A stretch of 60,000 bases of DNA from contig LDXX01000004.1 in the NCBI GenBank assembly GCA_001442925.1, positions 1 to 60,000 of the forward strand. The letters are read 5' to 3'. Within the stretch, counting starts at the first letter, position 1. Each line of letters begins with the position of its first letter. The notes beneath the pieces were generated by a model that saw only the letters and a program-made list of their open reading frames with translations, was not told where the DNA came from and did no database searches. The position numbers were made by a program, and so were the translations under genes. This stretch comes from Candidatus Kryptonium thompsonii (GTDB lineage Bacteria > Bacteroidota > Ignavibacteria > Kryptoniales > Kryptoniaceae). Shown one piece after another: positions 24,649 through 34,265 of the stretch.

Positions 24649-25257
24649 TTATTTTGACTCCCTAAATTTGCGATCTGGTCTTTTTATATGGCTATTTATA
24701 CCATATTTATCGTAAACATCAAAAATCTCTTCGCAGAATTTGATCATCCTTTTATCATTTTTTTCTAATGCTTCCTGGTATAACCTAATTAGAAATCTTT
24801 TCCCGAACTCTGTTTGGGAATAATTCTTTTTAAGGAGATTATGCTCTGAACACAAAGTTTGGCCATTCTCTATCGTGTTAGTGCCACCTTTATCAAGTGG
24901 AATTTTATGATCTGCGTGTATCTCTACCCCATCTTCCTTGCCACGCCCACAAACAATACATTTATATCCATCTTTTTTGAAAATTGCTTCTTTCACATCC
25001 GGGGGAAAATCGTGCAACTCCTTTTTCTGAATTAAGTCAGGATCATACTTGTAAACCCCCTTTCTCACTTTTATTAAAAAACCCTCCTGATATAGTCTGC
25101 GAATTCCTCGCCAAATATCCCTTGGCTTCCTACCATATAATTTCAAATACTGTTCCTCTACCCAATCAACAACAGGTCCATGCTGTAATTCCTTTTTAGG
25201 ATGTTTCCGAAAATACTCCATTATTAAGTCACTAATCGTTTTTTTCGCTTTAGCCAT
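24649..25257 (-). CDS. Winged-helix/HNH endonuclease, likely type II restriction enzyme
   Basis: A 202-residue protein. Residues about 5-75 form a winged-helix-like domain (ISDLIMEYFRKHP, DIWRGIRRLYQEGFLIKVRKGVYKYDP). Residues about 90-145 are a zinc-ribbon HNH nuclease with C100-x2-C103, the D116-H117 catalytic pair in HADHKIPLDKGG, N131, and C136-x2-H139. HNH enzymes of this type occur as stand-alone nucleases or restriction enzymes. Its start overlaps the methyltransferase stop by eight bases, which strongly suggests the restriction partner. The N-terminal domain probably supplies sequence recognition. The target site is unknown. Confidence 0.82.
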   Translation of the reverse strand: MAKAKKTISDLIMEYFRKHPKKELQHGPVVDWVEEQYLKLYGRKPRDIWRGIRRLYQEGFLIKVRKGVYKYDPDLIQKKELHDFPPDVKEAIFKKDGYKCIVCGRGKEDGVEIHADHKIPLDKGGTNTIENGQTLCSEHNLLKKNYSQTEFGKRFLIRLYQEALEKNDKRMIKFCEEIFDVYDKYGINSHIKRPDRKFRESK

Positions 25258-26074
25258 TTATTTTACTCCCTTTGTCTATTTCCAATTTGAGCTGGTTTAT
25301 TTGTGCCTCTTTTATAAGTCTATTCTTAGCGAGCTCACAATAATTTTTATCAATTTCAACCCCAATCCCTTTTCTATTAGTTAAAACACAAGCAATTAAA
25401 GTTGAACCACTTCCAAGAAAAGGATCAAGCACAGTATCACCAACGAAACTGAATAACTTTATACATCGTTTGGGTAATTCCACAGGAAATGGCGCCGGAT
25501 GGCCAATCCTTTTTTTACTCTCGCCCATAAAATTCCACACTCCATTAGTCCACTCTATAAACTCCTCTTTACTAATGTCTGATTTCCCACTACCACTAAT
25601 CTTTTTCCATCTTTCTTTGTAAAGAACAACGATAACCTCAACTGGGGCAATAACAAAAGGTGCTGAAGCAGAAAGCCATGAACCCCACGCGGTTCTTTTT
25701 GAAATATTCTGTTCGTTCCAGATGATTGTAGAGTGATACTTCCATCCCACACGCTTTGCAATTGTTACAATATCAGCATAAACACTTTGCTGACCTCCTT
25801 TATTTTTATCAAGCGGTATGTTCAAACACATTCTACCATCAGGTTTGCTAACCAAATAAGCTTTCTCAAGCCACTTCTCAGAAAATTCAAGATATTTTTC
25901 ATAAGGGATATCATCCTTGAAAGAGTTATAATTTATATCAACATTGTAAGGGGGCGAAGTCACGATTAAATCTATCGAATTTGGGGGTATAATCGATGTA
26001 GTTAAGAAATCATCATGAATTATCACTATATCCCCCTTCTCAAAATAAATCTTTCCTCTTTGAGAGCTTCCCAT
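25250..26074 (-). CDS. DNA methyltransferase, probably N4-cytosine (beta class)
   Basis: A 274-residue SAM-dependent DNA methyltransferase. The catalytic motif IV is T-S40-P-P-Y43 (SPPYNVD), typical of N4-cytosine enzymes, although some N6-adenine enzymes share it. It precedes the SAM-binding motif I LDPFLGSGSTLIACV (about 220-234), so the motif order is that of the beta class. A GVEIDKNYCELAKNRL motif follows. It should protect host DNA from the HNH enzyme encoded immediately downstream with overlapping ends. No Shine-Dalgarno sequence is seen at this ATG, and the candidate promoter at 26104-26132 is close upstream. Confidence 0.9.
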   Translation of the reverse strand: MGSSQRGKIYFEKGDIVIIHDDFLTTSIIPPNSIDLIVTSPPYNVDINYNSFKDDIPYEKYLEFSEKWLEKAYLVSKPDGRMCLNIPLDKNKGGQQSVYADIVTIAKRVGWKYHSTIIWNEQNISKRTAWGSWLSASAPFVIAPVEVIVVLYKERWKKISGSGKSDISKEEFIEWTNGVWNFMGESKKRIGHPAPFPVELPKRCIKLFSFVGDTVLDPFLGSGSTLIACVLTNRKGIGVEIDKNYCELAKNRLIKEAQINQLKLEIDKGSKING

Positions 26075-26103: not shown

Positions 26104-26132
26104 AAGTTATAAAGGCACCAATAAAAAATCAA
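26104..26132 (-). promoter_or_regulatory. Candidate promoter of the restriction-modification module
   Basis: On the minus strand, TTGATT (26127-26132), 17 bases, TAACTT (26104-26109). It lies at the very end of the GIY-YIG gene and about 30 bases before the methyltransferase ATG. It would let the module be expressed independently of the upstream nuclease operon. Assigned by eye. Confidence 0.45.
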
Positions 26133-26524
26133 ATGTATCGATTAAATCCAATCCCCTTAATCAAACTTTCAAACTTTTTCTCGTCATCCACATAAAACAA
26201 ATGCCCAAGACAATTGCAATCTGAACTACCGAACCCCTTCACCGCTTTAAAGCCGAAAATCGACATCTTTCTTGCGGTTTCATGCTCAAAAGCACCATCA
26301 GAATAAAATACCTTTTTAATCTCCACCCCCTTGCTGTTCAAAAGATAATCAATATGCCAAAACAACTTCTTTTTCTTTAACAAATGCCTTTTTATCCTAT
26401 GTTCAAAATTTAACTTGGCAGACCCAACATAAGCATAATAGCCGGAGCTAAACTTCACAACACCCAATTTCCCAACGACTTTATTAACTTCCCTCTTAAC
26501 AAAAATTAACAAAATATATATCAT
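26129..26524 (-). CDS. DUF123 GIY-YIG-like nuclease-domain protein
   Basis: A 131-residue stand-alone DUF123 protein, a GIY-YIG variant. Family landmarks are GYYAYVGSAKLNFEHRI, KRHL, FWHIDYLL, and the C-terminal GFGSSDCNCLGHLFYV. In other organisms this domain is fused to or encoded near endonuclease III or repair nucleases, and its biochemical activity is poorly defined. Its ATG overlaps the AddA-like stop by four bases (ATGA), so it is translationally coupled to the helicase-nuclease. This ties it to double-strand break processing by context only. Confidence 0.82.
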   Translation of the reverse strand: MIYILLIFVKREVNKVVGKLGVVKFSSGYYAYVGSAKLNFEHRIKRHLLKKKKLFWHIDYLLNSKGVEIKKVFYSDGAFEHETARKMSIFGFKAVKGFGSSDCNCLGHLFYVDDEKKFESLIKGIGFNRYI

Positions 26525-29500
26525 ACCTCACTCCCAATACATCTTCCGCCTCTAAAATATCCACAATAATTGCAATGCTCTTTGAAATCAGAAGAAATTG
26601 AAACACCCGAATCTAAATCCATCCTTTTTATGTCTGCGACAAACTTCTTAATTCTACCCTCAACTTCCACTAATGTCTCGTTCGTATGTGTGATTTCAAT
26701 AGGTGAATCAGGAAACTTCGTAAACAAAATATAAGAACGAAAAACTTTTTGCTTAGGACAAAGCTTGCTCAAAAGGTAGGAATATATGCTAAGCTGAACC
26801 TCATATTCTTTTCTCCTCACATCGATCTCGTCAAGGCTAATATCATCGGTTTTGAAATCAACTATCTCCCACTCACCATTCACCTTATATAATCTATCAA
26901 TTCTCCCAATTAGATACGCATCTTCAAATTTCATGGTTATCCCATACTCCGTATGATATTCCTCAGCTGAAAAAACTCTTTTACCAAACTCCGAGTTCAA
27001 AACTCTTTTAACCTCACTAATAACATAATCCCAAAGAGCTTTCGCCTTTTTCTCATTTGAAATCCCATTCTCACGAATTACAAACCAAGCAAGATCACCG
27101 AGTTTCTCTTCATCAAACTCACCTCTCCATCTTTCAAGGATCTGATGAACAATTCTACCTTTAACCGTCCCAACAATCTCATCCTTAAAATCGTCTTCAT
27201 AAGGCACCGAAGCGATGTCTTCAAAACCCTCATCGAGAACAAATTCTTTCCTCGGCTCAGGAAGCCCAAGCCGAAACTTCAAATAAAACTTCATTGGACA
27301 GAGCGAAAATGTTTGCAACTGCGTGGCTGCGAAAAATTCACCGTAAGGTTTAGATTCAAGCGGTTCAACGAAAATCTTATCCTCGTCAATATCAACATCA
27401 ACCGAACTTTTAAAAGAACTAACAACAGGCTCAGTGAAATCATGAGTATGCCTGTAAACCTTAACCTTTACAGTATAATCCAATTCTCCTTTATCTTTAA
27501 ATGTTATCCTTGTGGGAATCTTAACCTCGGGAATATAATCGATTTTATCCCTCACATCAAGAGCGCTCAAAACCCAATCAAGATATGTATCCTCACTCTT
27601 AGCGCCGTAAGCTCCAGAAATTATCAACATATCCCTTGCCCTTGTCATCGCAACATACAGAACTCTTTTCTCCTCCGCTATTGTCTTATGATTTCTTATG
27701 AGCCGATGAACGGAATTAATCGGCAATCCCTGCGCATCCCCTTCAACTTCATTTTCATTTCTATACCTGATCCCAAGACCAATCCCATAGTCAACATCAA
27801 TGTTATATCTTTCCCTCGAACGAACCTTAAACTTTTTGCCAAGGAATGGCAAAACGACAACGGGAAACTCAAGTCCCTTCGCAGCATGAATCGTCATTAT
27901 CTGCACAGCATTGATCCCAACTTGAACACTTGCTTGACCCTCTCGTAGATGTTCTTCCGAAAGGAATTTAAGTTGCTCAACGAAGTCATAAAGATTATTT
28001 AATCCCCTCGACTCGAAATCTCTGGCGATATCGATTAACTTCTGAATGTTTGCAATTATTTGATCTCCCCTCCGCATCGGCAAGACCGAACCGTTATACA
28101 TAGTGTTTTTAATTATCCTCTGAATTAAAGATGGGATCGATATCCTGTTTGCAACTTTCAAATCATCTGTTAAAATTTCAACAGCATATCTTAACCTATC
28201 CGATGGCACTGGCTCACTTGTCCGATTTACATAATCACGCACCTTTTCCCAGAAGTTTAAACCTTGACCATAAACTGAAACTTTGAAGATTTCCGCATCG
28301 CTTACGCCGAAAAACGGCGAGCGTAAAATCCCAACAAGTGCAACTTCATCATTTGTGTTGACAAGAAACTTTAAATAATTCATGAAATCGTAAATCTCCT
28401 GCGTCTGATAAAACCCAATCCCACTTGAAACTATGTAAGGAATTCCCAACTCAATAAAAGCGTTCTCAAGCGGTTTCAAAACATCTCTATTTCTTATCAA
28501 AACAGCGATGTCCCCAGCTTCAACCCTGCTTCTTTCACCATTCTTATAAACATATACATCCTCATCCTGAAGCAAACTTAAAATCCTCCTTCCAACAAAC
28601 CTCGCCTCTTCAAGTTCATCGGAACTACCATCTTTACTGTCATCTTTCTTTACGACAAGAATTTCAACAACGCCATCATCGTCAACTTCCCTTCCAACAA
28701 TAATTGGCTTGTACTCAACTTCATGAACGCTTATCCTCTCACCCATAATTTTGCTAAACACATGATTAACAAATCCCGCAATCCCCTTCAAAAGCCGAAA
28801 ACTTTCCCCCAAATATATCTCCTCCCCATCCTCTCTGCTTCGAATTTCCCTCCTCGTCCTGTCAAAAACCTCAACATCCGAACCCCTAAATCCATATATA
28901 CTTTGTTTATCATCTCCAACCACAAAAAGTTTTATCTTTTCTAGAAAATCCTTTATCAAACTCTTCACGATCTCATACTGCAAATAATTCGTGTCTTGAT
29001 ATTCATCGATCATTATGTATTTAAACCTCTTTGAAAGCTCACTTCTAACATCTTCATTCCTTTCAAGCAATTCCCTGACCTTCAACTGCAAATCTTCAAA
29101 GTCAAGATATCCATTTTGAATTTTAAAGCCTTCGTATTCACGGACTATCTCGTCATAAAGTGAAATTATCAACCTTGTATCACCAACATATTGACGGTGA
29201 AAATTTTTAAACTCATCAAACCTGTCAATATATAAATCTCTTACGTCGTTATAAACCCTTTTTAAAATTTCAAGCACCCGCAAAGCCTCTGCTTGCACCT
29301 CTGGTCGTCTGCCACTTAGCAATTTTTCAACCTTACTTCGCAATTTCAATTCATCTGTAAAAATTATTTCGGAAGCAGCATTAAAAACTTGGTATGCGGT
29401 TGCGATATCACCACTTTCCATCGCATTTTCAAACTGGGAAGCGAACCCACGAAATTTAATGCTTGAATCAGTAGCTTCGTAAAAAATATGCCCAACCAAA

Positions 29501-30216
29501 CTCCTAAAGATATTCACCATCCTGCTTCCCTCAAAAACCTTAAAAACATATCCAAAAATTTTATCTTTCCACATATCAATTATCTCGTCATCGCTTTTGA
29601 CCAAATAAATATCTCGCTTGACCTTCTCAACAAGCTCTCTTGAAGAAACGATCTTTTTTATGAACTTATAAAAGTTGTTTATCCCCATACGATCAACTAT
29701 ATCCAAAAGCTGAGCTGACTTTTCATCTCTTTGAGCTAAAAACTTTTTAATCCTATCCTCAGTGATTATATCAATCACTCGATCCCGCTCCGCTCCTTCA
29801 AGCACAGTGAAATTAGGATCGACCCCCGCTGATACGGCAAACTCCCTGAGAATTCTCGCACAAAATGAATGAATAGTCCCAATCACAGCGGATGGCATAG
29901 CATCTCTTAACTTCTCAAACTTTCTCAACTCGTCGATATCATTTGCATCCATTGCCTCTTTTATCCTTTTCTCTATAGCTTCCGTCGCTCTCTTTCTCAG
30001 TTCGCTTCCAGCCTTTTCAGTAAAGGTTATAACCACGATGCTTTCAACGATATCGCTGAAATCATCAGTTGGAGCTGGAACAGAATTGATAAGCTCTTCA
30101 AGCGTCTTGATGTATTTTTCAATTAAAACTGTCGTCTTGCCAGAACCTGCGCTTGCGGTGACAGACAAATGTTTTGATGATTTTACAGCTCTTTCCTGTG
30201 ATTCGGTTAATCTCAT
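26521..30216 (-). CDS. addA: AddA-like UvrD-family helicase-nuclease with Fe-S-type cysteines
   Basis: The start at 30216 (MRLTESQERAV) is chosen because it forms an ATGA overlap with the upstream exonuclease and follows AAAGGA; the frame stays open to 30264. The 1231-residue product is a superfamily 1A helicase: Walker A ASAGSGKTT, Walker B YIMIDEYQDT, VVGDDKQSIYGFRGSD, and motif V IMTIHAAKGLEFP. The C-terminal PD-(D/E)XK nuclease has GRIDRLY and the EIVDFKTD core. Unlike B. subtilis AddA, it also shows Cys973 and a C-x2-C-x7-C tail (1215, 1218, 1226), the usual Fe-S staple. It should resect DNA ends with the AddB-like protein. Confidence 0.9.
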   Translation of the reverse strand: MRLTESQERAVKSSKHLSVTASAGSGKTTVLIEKYIKTLEELINSVPAPTDDFSDIVESIVVITFTEKAGSELRKRATEAIEKRIKEAMDANDIDELRKFEKLRDAMPSAVIGTIHSFCARILREFAVSAGVDPNFTVLEGAERDRVIDIITEDRIKKFLAQRDEKSAQLLDIVDRMGINNFYKFIKKIVSSRELVEKVKRDIYLVKSDDEIIDMWKDKIFGYVFKVFEGSRMVNIFRSLVGHIFYEATDSSIKFRGFASQFENAMESGDIATAYQVFNAASEIIFTDELKLRSKVEKLLSGRRPEVQAEALRVLEILKRVYNDVRDLYIDRFDEFKNFHRQYVGDTRLIISLYDEIVREYEGFKIQNGYLDFEDLQLKVRELLERNEDVRSELSKRFKYIMIDEYQDTNYLQYEIVKSLIKDFLEKIKLFVVGDDKQSIYGFRGSDVEVFDRTRREIRSREDGEEIYLGESFRLLKGIAGFVNHVFSKIMGERISVHEVEYKPIIVGREVDDDGVVEILVVKKDDSKDGSSDELEEARFVGRRILSLLQDEDVYVYKNGERSRVEAGDIAVLIRNRDVLKPLENAFIELGIPYIVSSGIGFYQTQEIYDFMNYLKFLVNTNDEVALVGILRSPFFGVSDAEIFKVSVYGQGLNFWEKVRDYVNRTSEPVPSDRLRYAVEILTDDLKVANRISIPSLIQRIIKNTMYNGSVLPMRRGDQIIANIQKLIDIARDFESRGLNNLYDFVEQLKFLSEEHLREGQASVQVGINAVQIMTIHAAKGLEFPVVVLPFLGKKFKVRSRERYNIDVDYGIGLGIRYRNENEVEGDAQGLPINSVHRLIRNHKTIAEEKRVLYVAMTRARDMLIISGAYGAKSEDTYLDWVLSALDVRDKIDYIPEVKIPTRITFKDKGELDYTVKVKVYRHTHDFTEPVVSSFKSSVDVDIDEDKIFVEPLESKPYGEFFAATQLQTFSLCPMKFYLKFRLGLPEPRKEFVLDEGFEDIASVPYEDDFKDEIVGTVKGRIVHQILERWRGEFDEEKLGDLAWFVIRENGISNEKKAKALWDYVISEVKRVLNSEFGKRVFSAEEYHTEYGITMKFEDAYLIGRIDRLYKVNGEWEIVDFKTDDISLDEIDVRRKEYEVQLSIYSYLLSKLCPKQKVFRSYILFTKFPDSPIEITHTNETLVEVEGRIKKFVADIKRMDLDSGVSISSDFKEHCNYCGYFRGGRCIGSEV

Positions 30217-30983
30217 AATCCTTTGGTGTTTCCAATGTTTTTTGGATTTAAAAATTGCTCCCACCTGAAAAATAACTCCGCTTCAGCAATTATATCATAC
30301 ATGCAGTATTGCGCTATTTCTTTAAATCTACCTTCGTTGAAAAGTTGATTTATATCATGACCAGTTATTCCATGCGATTTCGGACTTTCTATATTGAAAA
30401 CTTTGCAGTAAAAATCAAGCGAAAATTTTCTCGTCAATCCGAAAAATGTAAACTCCTCAAGCAAATCAATATGCGGTTCACGCTTTGTCCTGTTATATTC
30501 CATTAGATCACGGCTCGGCTTTATGCCAAGTATTGCAGACCTCAACATCAAAAACGGACAATCAAACCCACGACCGTTAAATGTTATAAATGTCTTAAAC
30601 TTCGAAATATATCCCCAAAACTTTTGAATTATCTCAGCCTCACTTCCAGAAATGAATTTTATCTTCACTTTGTCTTTCCTCGATTCATCCGAAGCAAAAA
30701 CATTTATCACCTTATCAATTTCATATTCCCATTCCTCTTTCTCGTTCGCTTGATAAAGCACCACACCTTGTGACGAATCAACATTTAACATTCCAATTGC
30801 CACAACTTGTGCAGTCAACGGATAAAGATTTAACCTCTCTATCACCTTCGCTCGTTCTTTTTCACGCTTTTCTTCACTCTCTTCTTCCTCCGCAAATTTC
30901 ATCAAATATTCATATTGAACATCGTCAAAAACATCAATCGGGAAACCAGATGTTTCAATGTCAAACAAAACACGCCCCTTCAT
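30213..30983 (-). CDS. DEDD 3'-5' exonuclease, PolB-exonuclease-like
   Basis: A 256-residue RNase H-fold exonuclease of the DNA_pol_B_exo2 type. Motif I is D8-I-E10-T in LFDIETSG. Motif II is FNGRGFDCPFLMLR (about residue 136), with the family's N-G-x-x-F-D-x-P. Motif III is YCMYDIIAEAELF (about residue 221), with the tyrosine of DEDDy enzymes. It should remove nucleotides from 3' ends. It is sandwiched between the AddB-like and AddA-like genes (3-base gap and ATGA overlap), which suggests that it trims ends in the same reaction. That functional link is inferred. Confidence 0.85.
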   Translation of the reverse strand: MKGRVLFDIETSGFPIDVFDDVQYEYLMKFAEEEESEEKREKERAKVIERLNLYPLTAQVVAIGMLNVDSSQGVVLYQANEKEEWEYEIDKVINVFASDESRKDKVKIKFISGSEAEIIQKFWGYISKFKTFITFNGRGFDCPFLMLRSAILGIKPSRDLMEYNRTKREPHIDLLEEFTFFGLTRKFSLDFYCKVFNIESPKSHGITGHDINQLFNEGRFKEIAQYCMYDIIAEAELFFRWEQFLNPKNIGNTKGL

Positions 30984-30986
30984 CTC

Positions 30987-33900
30987 TTAACCCCAGCTTT
31001 TTATTTGAACCCCGAATTTAACCTCATTAATTCTACAAATTTCAATATACGGGCAGTTGCCACATATGCTCTGCAGAGATTCATCATGTTCCGTTAAATT
31101 GAACTTACCTTCAATGATTCCATCCACAAACTGATTCGCTTTACCAACCGCTTCATCAATCTTTTGCTTGAATATTTCCTTATTGAAATAATTACTTTCT
31201 CTACTTCTCCTAATTTTTTCCTGAATTAACACAGCCTTACTTTTAACATCACGCCGAACAATATAATTATATCCCCCAATTCCTTCTAACTCTCTCTCCT
31301 TCAGTTTAAAAATTTCCTCAGCAATTTTTATATAAAGCGGAATTTGAAGATGAATCCCTTTCTCAATTTGCTCCTGATTCACATAACCACTGCCCGTCTT
31401 GTAATCGTAAACTATGAACTCATTATTAGCGACATCAATTCTATCAATCTTTCCTTGAATTTTTACCCTCCCAAGTTCAATTGGGTCATTGATTGAAAGT
31501 TCTCTATCGCTATTTCTTCTTGCACCAACCTTTGGACCAAATGCAACTTCAAAATAAGTTGGCTTGAAATTTAAACTCATATTTTGTTCATTCTTGACAA
31601 AAGCAACAACGCTTCTCTCAAGCTCCCTAACCTCAATTTCCCAAAGTGGATGGCTTATCTCAAACTCACGAACTTTCTTTTTGGCTATTTCTTTGATCAA
31701 GGAGAGTGCACCATCAACATCATCACGAACAAGTTTTCCTGTCTCACGCCACCTCGTGTAAAACTCGTAAAGAACCTCATGGTAAAGGATTCCACGCTCA
31801 ATCGGAGTGAGAAGTTCCTCTATCTCCTCAACGCCTTTTAACCCGAGAACTCTTTCAACGAAATACCTATATGGGCACTTACCGTATGTCTCAATCTGTG
31901 AAATTGAAAAAATCTTCCTTTCATGCTCCCCAAGCTTTCTTCTCTCTTCTTCATAAACTGGTTTCACAATGCCCTCATATTCAAGATAGTCCCCCTCATG
32001 AGTTTCACTTCTGCTTATGTTTATTCTGGAAATATCAAAAACACGCTTGAGGCTATCCCCATAATTTTCAACAAGCTTTGAAAATTTTCGCTCAATGAAA
32101 TCAAATGAGTTTAAATTTTCAGAGTTAAACTTTAAAAATCTACCGTAGCGCTCATAAAGTTCATCCGCTGAATAAATCCAATCTTTAAAAGCGGACGAGT
32201 CAACAGTTTCAAAGTCTATCACCTGTTCAAGTGAGTCAATAAATCTTGATCTGACAAGCTCATTATCGTTATCAGTTCTTGGATATGTCATATAAAGATG
32301 TGATTTGAAATTCACAGCGCCTTGGTAGAAAAGATATCGTTCGTCAAGTTTGTGCATCTTTCTTGTCTTTCTTAAACCCTCGCTTAAAAAAACTTCTGGC
32401 TCATATACTGAAGGGAATTCGGTGTCCACAAGCCCAGCAATTATCATCACATCGAAATTTAATCCTCTTGTTTCCTCAAGCGTTGTGACATAAACTCCGT
32501 AACCAAATTTTTGCCTTATGTTATAACGAGCCCTCGGGAGCGCCCTTTTTATTAAGTCGACATAATACTTCAGACCATACTTCTCCCTTCGTCTCATATT
32601 AAATTCAAAAACTTCAAGAAGTTCATCCAGTGTTTCAATAAACTTCTGATAAGCTCTTGCATCACGCTCAATCTCATCGTGAGTTGCAATTTTTCTCGGA
32701 ACCTTTAAAATTTGCTCATTAACTTTAAGATCGGCAAGAATTCCATAAAGATTATCTCTGAACTCCGACGGCGTCATTGGTTTGTTAAACTTATCAACAA
32801 CCTTAACCATAAGATCTTCGAAATCGAATAATGCACTTTCAAAAATCTCCTTTTCCTTTTGAATTTGCTCATACTCATCTTGATCATTGGTCATTTCAAG
32901 CTTTGATTTTAATATCTCAATTCTCCTTTTAACTCTCTCATACCAAACTTCCCTGCCATTTTTAATCTTGAGCTCCTTTGAAACTATATAAATGTTTTCC
33001 GCTTTTAATTCCCTTCCAACAACGGATGAAAAATCAAAGTAAGGACTCATCAAAACTTTTATTATATCGTTTATCCGATAATCATTGATTGGGATCTCAA
33101 GTAGTGAAACTATCGAAGAAACAAGGGGAGAACGCTCAAGATAAAATCTATCCGTGATGTTTGCAGGAATTCCATAGATAGCAAAAATTTCCCTGAAAAG
33201 ATTTGTATATTTATCAGGTCTGTAAGTAGCTACACAGATTTTGCTTAAATCTATATCTGGTCTTTCGCTGACAATTTTTTTAATCACCCGTGCTATCGTT
33301 CTGACCTCGTCGATTCTATCACTTGCCTCAATAAGCGTCACATATCCCTTCGCATCATACTTGCCTTTAAAATTTGAACCGATGTAATTGAAAAGATACT
33401 TATTTAAATGCCTCGCAAATTTATCGTTCTCCGTTTTAGGTCTCACCTCATACCTTTTAAATCCAGCGTCCACGAGCCTATTATAACATTCATCAAGGTG
33501 TCCGAAAAGGTTGTTATTTTTTTCAAAGTAGTCAAAAAAGATGACGGTTGATAAATCATGAACCTTTGTTAAGATCTTTATCAAATTTGTCTCAGGCAGA
33601 CGAAACATCGAAAAACCTTCAATGAAAACTAAATCAACATTGTAAAATGCGCTTCTGAAAATTGAGTTAACATTCTCCCAATTTAATATATCGTTCAACT
33701 CTTTGAAAATCCCAGGAACATCGATAAAACCATTGCTCATTAGAAATCCCTCATACCGTTCATAAATCCTCACAAGATCCTGAAGTTTTATCCTGTCCTC
33801 GATCTTTTCAACTTTCTCAATTTCTTCATACAACTTTGCTGGATAAATTCCATCTTCTTTTAGTCCAATTATGGTATCGATGATCCTATTTAAAGTTCCT

Positions 33901-34265
33901 CTTGGAAGTTCCTTTTGCCCCACCTGCCCAGGTGGTTTGAAATATGTAAGCTCATCAATTATATCTTCAATTGCAATTTGAAATAAAAGAGATTGAATTG
34001 TTTCTGATATCAGGCGCTTTGGTTTTTCAAGATTAGCGCTGTAATATAATCTTCGCGCAAAAAGTTCAAGCGTGAAAAGATTAATCTCTGGCATAACCCC
34101 ATTATTAGAAAACTCAAGCAACTCCCTTCGCAATTCCCTTATCTTTCTTCGCGTCGGAACGATATAAACAAAGGTATCAAATTTTCCAGCCCTTATTCTG
34201 CGCTCTATTTCTTTTTTTATATCCGCTACCCTCGTCCCTGGGGGAAAGCTCAAAATTACGCTCAT
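30987..34265 (-). CDS. addB: AddB-like helicase-fold/PD-(D/E)XK Fe-S nuclease
   Basis: A 1092-residue protein with the AddB layout. The N-terminal part (SFPPGTRVADIKKEI) lacks a Walker A G-K-[ST], so the helicase fold is probably inactive. The middle (about 150-760) resembles the non-translocating helicase body, with LEETRGLNFDVMIIAGL near residue 600. The C-terminal nuclease has Cys796 (KCPYRYF), ILYHEVLYEF, GKIDRID, VYDYKTGSG and Cys1068-x2-Cys1071-x5-Cys1077, the 4Fe-4S staple of AddB nucleases. It would pair with the AddA-like protein to process double-strand breaks. It lies 60 bases downstream of carA. Confidence 0.83.
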   Translation of the reverse strand: MSVILSFPPGTRVADIKKEIERRIRAGKFDTFVYIVPTRRKIRELRRELLEFSNNGVMPEINLFTLELFARRLYYSANLEKPKRLISETIQSLLFQIAIEDIIDELTYFKPPGQVGQKELPRGTLNRIIDTIIGLKEDGIYPAKLYEEIEKVEKIEDRIKLQDLVRIYERYEGFLMSNGFIDVPGIFKELNDILNWENVNSIFRSAFYNVDLVFIEGFSMFRLPETNLIKILTKVHDLSTVIFFDYFEKNNNLFGHLDECYNRLVDAGFKRYEVRPKTENDKFARHLNKYLFNYIGSNFKGKYDAKGYVTLIEASDRIDEVRTIARVIKKIVSERPDIDLSKICVATYRPDKYTNLFREIFAIYGIPANITDRFYLERSPLVSSIVSLLEIPINDYRINDIIKVLMSPYFDFSSVVGRELKAENIYIVSKELKIKNGREVWYERVKRRIEILKSKLEMTNDQDEYEQIQKEKEIFESALFDFEDLMVKVVDKFNKPMTPSEFRDNLYGILADLKVNEQILKVPRKIATHDEIERDARAYQKFIETLDELLEVFEFNMRRREKYGLKYYVDLIKRALPRARYNIRQKFGYGVYVTTLEETRGLNFDVMIIAGLVDTEFPSVYEPEVFLSEGLRKTRKMHKLDERYLFYQGAVNFKSHLYMTYPRTDNDNELVRSRFIDSLEQVIDFETVDSSAFKDWIYSADELYERYGRFLKFNSENLNSFDFIERKFSKLVENYGDSLKRVFDISRINISRSETHEGDYLEYEGIVKPVYEEERRKLGEHERKIFSISQIETYGKCPYRYFVERVLGLKGVEEIEELLTPIERGILYHEVLYEFYTRWRETGKLVRDDVDGALSLIKEIAKKKVREFEISHPLWEIEVRELERSVVAFVKNEQNMSLNFKPTYFEVAFGPKVGARRNSDRELSINDPIELGRVKIQGKIDRIDVANNEFIVYDYKTGSGYVNQEQIEKGIHLQIPLYIKIAEEIFKLKERELEGIGGYNYIVRRDVKSKAVLIQEKIRRSRESNYFNKEIFKQKIDEAVGKANQFVDGIIEGKFNLTEHDESLQSICGNCPYIEICRINEVKFGVQIKSWG

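Follow-up and report, generated by a model that had tools for sequence, protein, structure and literature searches.

The window considered here is a 60,000-nucleotide stretch of contig LDXX01000004.1 from Candidatus Kryptonium thompsonii, whose genome comprises 2.59 Mb in 18 contigs. Its minus strand carries, from 34265 to 26129, four genes in the order addB, an exonuclease gene designated here as EXO, addA and a DUF123 gene, and these are followed by two neighbouring restriction-modification (RM) genes:

30987..34265, minus strand: addB, 1092 aa (Pfam, NCBIfam, PDB profile match, invariant residues)
30213..30983, minus strand: EXO, 256 aa, predicted DEDDy 3'-5' exonuclease of PF10108/COG3298 (Pfam, alignment)
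26521..30216, minus strand: addA, SF1A helicase with PD-(D/E)XK nuclease (Pfam, NCBIfam, alignment, PDB match)
26129..26524, minus strand: DUF123/COG1833 GIY-YIG protein (Pfam, alignment, dN/dS)
25250..26074, minus strand: N4/N6 DNA methyltransferase, a neighbour (Pfam N6_N4 3.4e-48; PADLOC MTase_II 4.4e-97)
24649..25257, minus strand: HNH protein, probable restriction endonuclease, a neighbour (Pfam HNH 2.5e-9; PADLOC REase_II 3.2e-8)

The four genes are tightly packed. Three bases separate addB from EXO, and addA and the DUF123 gene overlap by four. EXO and addA share a 4-base ATGA overlap when addA begins at the ATG at 30216 (MRLTESQ...), the start common to its relatives in the alignment; an upstream GTG at 30264 would instead give an overlap of 52 bases. 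The order, strand and junctions (+3/-4/-4) reported by the initial annotation are those of the ORF list, and its assignments to AddB, a DEDD exonuclease, AddA and DUF123 were confirmed by Pfam matches. A promoter and terminator scan compared with shuffled sequences (33 vs 30.7 and 4 vs 5.6) gave no excess of sites.

Judged by their sequences, AddA and AddB are an ordinary AddAB pair, because each finds its best solved relative in the Bacillus subtilis enzyme, and both predicted nuclease sites are intact. AddB is matched by the Pfam models PDDEXK_1 (1.3e-35) and UvrD_C (1.7e-12) and by the NCBIfam model addB_Gpos (6.6e-51), and its best PDB relative in a profile search is B. subtilis AddB (3u44_B, 2.7e-38). 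The protein has an inactivated SF1 helicase fold followed by a C-terminal PD-(D/E)XK nuclease. Its N terminus carries no Walker A motif, as expected for the inactivated, Chi-scanning helicase fold (PMC4824097). The Fe-S cysteines (C797, C1068, C1071 and C1077) and the nuclease residues (H829, D941, D954 and K956) are invariant in the 12 sequences aligned, and the profile alignment to 3u44_B is highly divergent around E129/F68, in the Chi recognition/latch region. AddA is matched by UvrD-helicase (1.2e-56), UvrD_C (1.9e-37) and PDDEXK_1 (1.2e-20), with B. subtilis AddA (3u44_A, 9.2e-108) as its best PDB relative. It holds the full SF1 motif set, including AGSGKT, DEYQDT, GDDKQSIY and VAMTRA, and its nuclease residues (H1024, D1107, D1120 and K1122) are intact in all aligned relatives. 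Both proteins fall below the NCBIfam equivalog cut-offs for the Gram-positive type (AddA, 393 bits against 707.65; AddB, 173 bits against 903.7), a shortfall that marks divergence from that type and does not define AddAB. Within the genus AddA and AddB are 63-87% identical to their counterparts, falling to about 30% in the sister family (f2), and they are the only PDDEXK_1 proteins of the source genome.

As in B. subtilis AddAB (PDB 3u44), there are two subunits with a single SF1A motor in AddA, an inactivated helicase fold in AddB and one PD-(D/E)XK nuclease in each. The present locus departs from that system in having its two subunit genes separated by one for a DEDDy exonuclease and followed by one for a GIY-YIG protein. 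AddA also bears four cysteines (C973, C1215, C1218 and C1226) forming an Fe-S-type signature, which to our knowledge B. subtilis AddA does not have. This signature was rejected as an oddity of the operon, as it is common in the class (families f10, f13 and f19); its second half also occurs in f11, and it was not found in f8 or f16. Two further observations concern relatives of these genes. The addA of Candidatus Chrysopegis kryptomonas JGI-23 (locus L086, 8758-12397) occupies two overlapping frames, owing to a sequencing error or a real frameshift. In the sister family, addB lies directly after rmuC (L095, 11838-16414, where PF02646 was checked; relatives L093, L094 and L096), another recombination-linked neighbour.

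The gene between the two subunits encodes a member of DNA_pol_B_exo2 (PF10108; 4.5e-22, above the cut-off). EXO carries the Exo I DxE, Exo II Nx3[FY]D and Exo III Yx3D motifs, the full DEDDy set, and the residues concerned (D8/E10, N136/F140/D141 and Y226/D230) do not vary among 14 sequences drawn from four families. In a PDB profile search it matches family-B DNA polymerases over their exonuclease regions, and its family predicts a DNase of 3'-5' polarity. An AlphaFold model built from three sequences reached a pLDDT of 36 and was set aside. Of the four genes, EXO is under the strongest constraint, with 81-94% identity within the genus and a dN/dS of 0.03-0.06; the closest named relatives are those of a Candidatus Kryptonia MAG (94%) and Ca. 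Chrysopegis kryptomonas JGI-23 (87%), and identity to the sister family is 55-58%. Relatives in Cellulophaga phages share ~30% identity with it, too little to argue for an origin in phages.

PF10108/COG3298 has been placed beside the PolB exonucleases and the PF13482 families, and PF13482, which lies near PF10108 in sequence clustering, is joined to a PD-(D/E)XK-like domain in COG2251 (PMC3985635). The COG2251 RecB-family nucleases thus resemble the present locus in combining PD-(D/E)XK-like and DEDD-type domains, although they do so in a single fused protein rather than in an AddAB operon (PMC3985635). PF10108/COG3298 proteins at large are, like EXO, predicted PolB-type exonucleases with the Pfam match and complete DEDDy residues, whereas EXO belongs to a coherent subfamily that is tied to addA or to recA-recX in part of the class. 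The literature searched yielded neither a functional study of PF10108/COG3298 nor a described association of AddAB with this family or with a DEDD exonuclease.

The DUF123 protein (Pfam, 2.7e-25) fits the COG1833 pattern of a two-part GIY/YIG motif, an Arg, a Glu and a C-terminal Cys/His cluster in place of the Asn; such a cluster is typical of COG1833 (PMC1564403). The residues Y3, Y32, G34, R43, H47 and E80, together with the cluster C103, C105 and H108, are invariant in the seven species of the genus. In a PDB search only a marginal match to I-TevI was returned (E 0.23). This is the fastest-diverging protein of the unit (49-73% identity within the genus), and its dN/dS against the closest species is 0.10; ratios taken at saturated dS are unreliable. 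In a phylogenetic tree the genus proteins form a clade apart from those of the sister family, a split that is well supported with an uncertain root, and no linkage of DUF123 to the locus was found beyond the genus. DUF123 had therefore entered the locus no later than in the ancestor of the genus, and it probably serves there in an accessory role. Its companion here is addA, whereas DUF123 elsewhere is fused to endonuclease III, as in Methanococcales (PMC1564403), or to SfsA. The SfsA-DUF123 fusions, which combine two nuclease-like domains, were seen in family f12 (L036, 679-1854, on which Pfam was run; L038, 1411-2583).

Conservation of the arrangement supports joint production of the four proteins, as the initial annotation had proposed from their tight junctions. 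The unit is complete and in the same order in each of the six species of the genus that could be read (G000-G004 and G006), and in the seventh (G005) it is broken at contig ends, yet consistent. Its surroundings vary: carAB lies upstream in G000, G002 and G003 and other genes do in G004 and in G005/G006, and the downstream side holds RM modules, a plain junction or unrelated genes. Since six species retain the arrangement while its flanks change, it is kept as a unit and not by chance. The complete set of four occurs together only in this genus. A smaller coupling extends further, for EXO overlaps or abuts addA in 18 of 18 EXO-bearing genomes of the order, including every sister-family genome with EXO (12/12). 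In these sister-family genomes addB is either several kb distant on that contig or on a different one, and any DUF123 gene sits elsewhere. In 13 EXO loci of other families, no addA was found within flanks of 1.5 kb, and among the 247 genomes of a phylum sample no order but this one has EXO next to AddA. Conserved linkage is seen for all four genes in the genus and for EXO and AddA across the order, but not for DUF123 beyond the genus.

These patterns would also suit a stable four-subunit holoenzyme in Kryptonia, in which EXO and DUF123 are structural subunits acting in cis on strands as they emerge from the motor. Translational coupling and a gene order retained in every readable species of the genus favour such an assembly, as does the coupling of EXO to AddA throughout the order. 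We nevertheless consider it improbable, given that DUF123 is absent from the locus outside the genus and that EXO occurs without AddA in several families. When larger flanks were inspected, EXO was found to adjoin recX, recA or both, often accompanied by ligT and cinA, in nine genomes (G216, G243, G058, G166, G049, G282, G143, G040 and G026) of families f4, f9, f13, f17 and f20; in G040 the RecX, RecA, LigT and CinA identities were confirmed by Pfam. EXO was near neither addA nor recA where checked in f10, f19, f11, f7 and f21. Eight EXO-bearing genomes (G049, G058, G143, G166, G216, G243, G282 and G270) gave no match to AddA at E<=1e-60, in a check confined, among end-resection systems such as AddAB, AdnAB and RecBCD, to AddA. 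Seven of these hold EXO at recA-recX and the eighth, G270, has it at a contig end; G040 and G026 combine the recA-recX placement with a recognisable AddA. Occurring as it does in genomes that lack such an AddA, EXO does not need AddAB, and its position at recA-recX in such genomes points to a recombination-associated, partner-changing exonuclease instead of an obligate AddAB subunit. No other observation speaks as strongly for the predicted role of EXO in recombination, and this placement is also the chief reason to doubt that EXO is such a subunit.

The same partner switching, between recA-recX, addA or neither, lends itself to another explanation, namely an operon of convenience in which low-level repair genes share a promoter while EXO and DUF123 perform separate jobs. 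The late joining and rapid divergence of DUF123 (49-73% identity) are in keeping with this. It is rather unlikely, however, in view of the preservation of the unit through changes in flanking genes and the repeated adjoining of EXO to recombination genes.

The account that we lean towards, as somewhat probable, is that a standard AddAB, a dedicated DEDDy 3'-5' exonuclease and a small GIY-YIG endonuclease together process double-strand ends for RecA-dependent recombination. A shared role at DNA ends, already suggested by the initial annotation, gains support from the genus-wide unit, the order-wide coupling of EXO to AddA and the presence of EXO at recA-recX elsewhere; with the protein families and their intact catalytic residues, these are all features read from sequence. 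AddAB would bind the broken end and the AddA motor would unwind it, with the AddA nuclease cutting the 3'-ended strand and the AddB nuclease the 5'-ended strand, assignments that come from work on B. subtilis (PMC4824097). EXO would digest 3'-ended single strands, and may thereby trim long 3' overhangs for AddAB loading or clear released fragments, and DUF123 may nick blocked or structured ends. The substrates of EXO and DUF123, their order of action and any physical contact are conjectural parts of this scheme. Because EXO occurs without AddA and DUF123 is linked only in the genus, both seem to be partners in the pathway and not obligate subunits. A more ambitious version appears quite unlikely: EXO would represent a recombination-dedicated DEDDy subfamily, a RecA/RecX partner in some lineages and an added AddAB subunit in Kryptonia-type bacteria, where the GIY-YIG endonuclease would complete a four-nuclease machine, in one complex, for blocked, overhanging and structured ends.

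PF10108 exonucleases and DUF123 proteins have so far been predicted nucleases without an assigned pathway. Conserved coupling to AddAB, along with EXO at recA-recX in five related families, offers them a definite place in double-strand-break recombination that can be put to the test. Escherichia coli uses the separate nucleases ExoI and RecJ for strand trimming; the present locus suggests that accessory nucleases for strand trimming can be drawn into the operon of an AddAB system.

The methylase gene begins 54 bases past the end of DUF123, and the RM pair that the initial annotation placed directly after the unit is present, as the N6_N4 methylase and HNH matches in Pfam attest. From this proximity a combined end-processing and defence island had been suggested as a possibility. 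In such an island the RM enzymes would cut invading DNA and the unit would degrade the fragments as a co-selected anti-phage system. RecBCD and AddAB do degrade restricted phage DNA, and an RM pair directly follows the unit in G000, G001, G003, G004 and G006. However, the methylase and HNH pair occurs at this slot only in G000 and G006 of the genus (about 75% identical); G001, G003 and G004 hold an unrelated methylase with an N-terminal DCD-like domain and a BsaWI-like endonuclease (Pfam-checked in G003), and G002 has neither system. No stable association of the unit with one defence system was found across the genus. In PADLOC the core proteins had no dedicated defence family match beyond generic UvrD helicase models; Gabija was rejected, as the AddA matches were to generic GajB UvrD models. 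A defence island is thus very unlikely, and of the overall reading first proposed it is the conserved end-processing unit that stands. With one of two unrelated RM systems or nothing at this slot, the RM module is a replaceable neighbour and not part of the unit. The slot itself (24649-26074; L086-L089 and L092), with alternative type II RM systems or none, suggests a hotspot of RM exchange. Its second methylase has an N-terminal match to Dev_Cell_Death (PF10539, 8e-11 to 8e-12), a domain familiar from plants and unusual on a bacterial methylase, and is coupled to the BsaWI-like endonuclease (1.1e-30) in three loci:

L088, 12612-14439: Dev_Cell_Death methylase and BsaWI-like pair
L086, 12932-14783: Dev_Cell_Death methylase and BsaWI-like pair
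L089, 5444-7349: Dev_Cell_Death methylase and BsaWI-like pair
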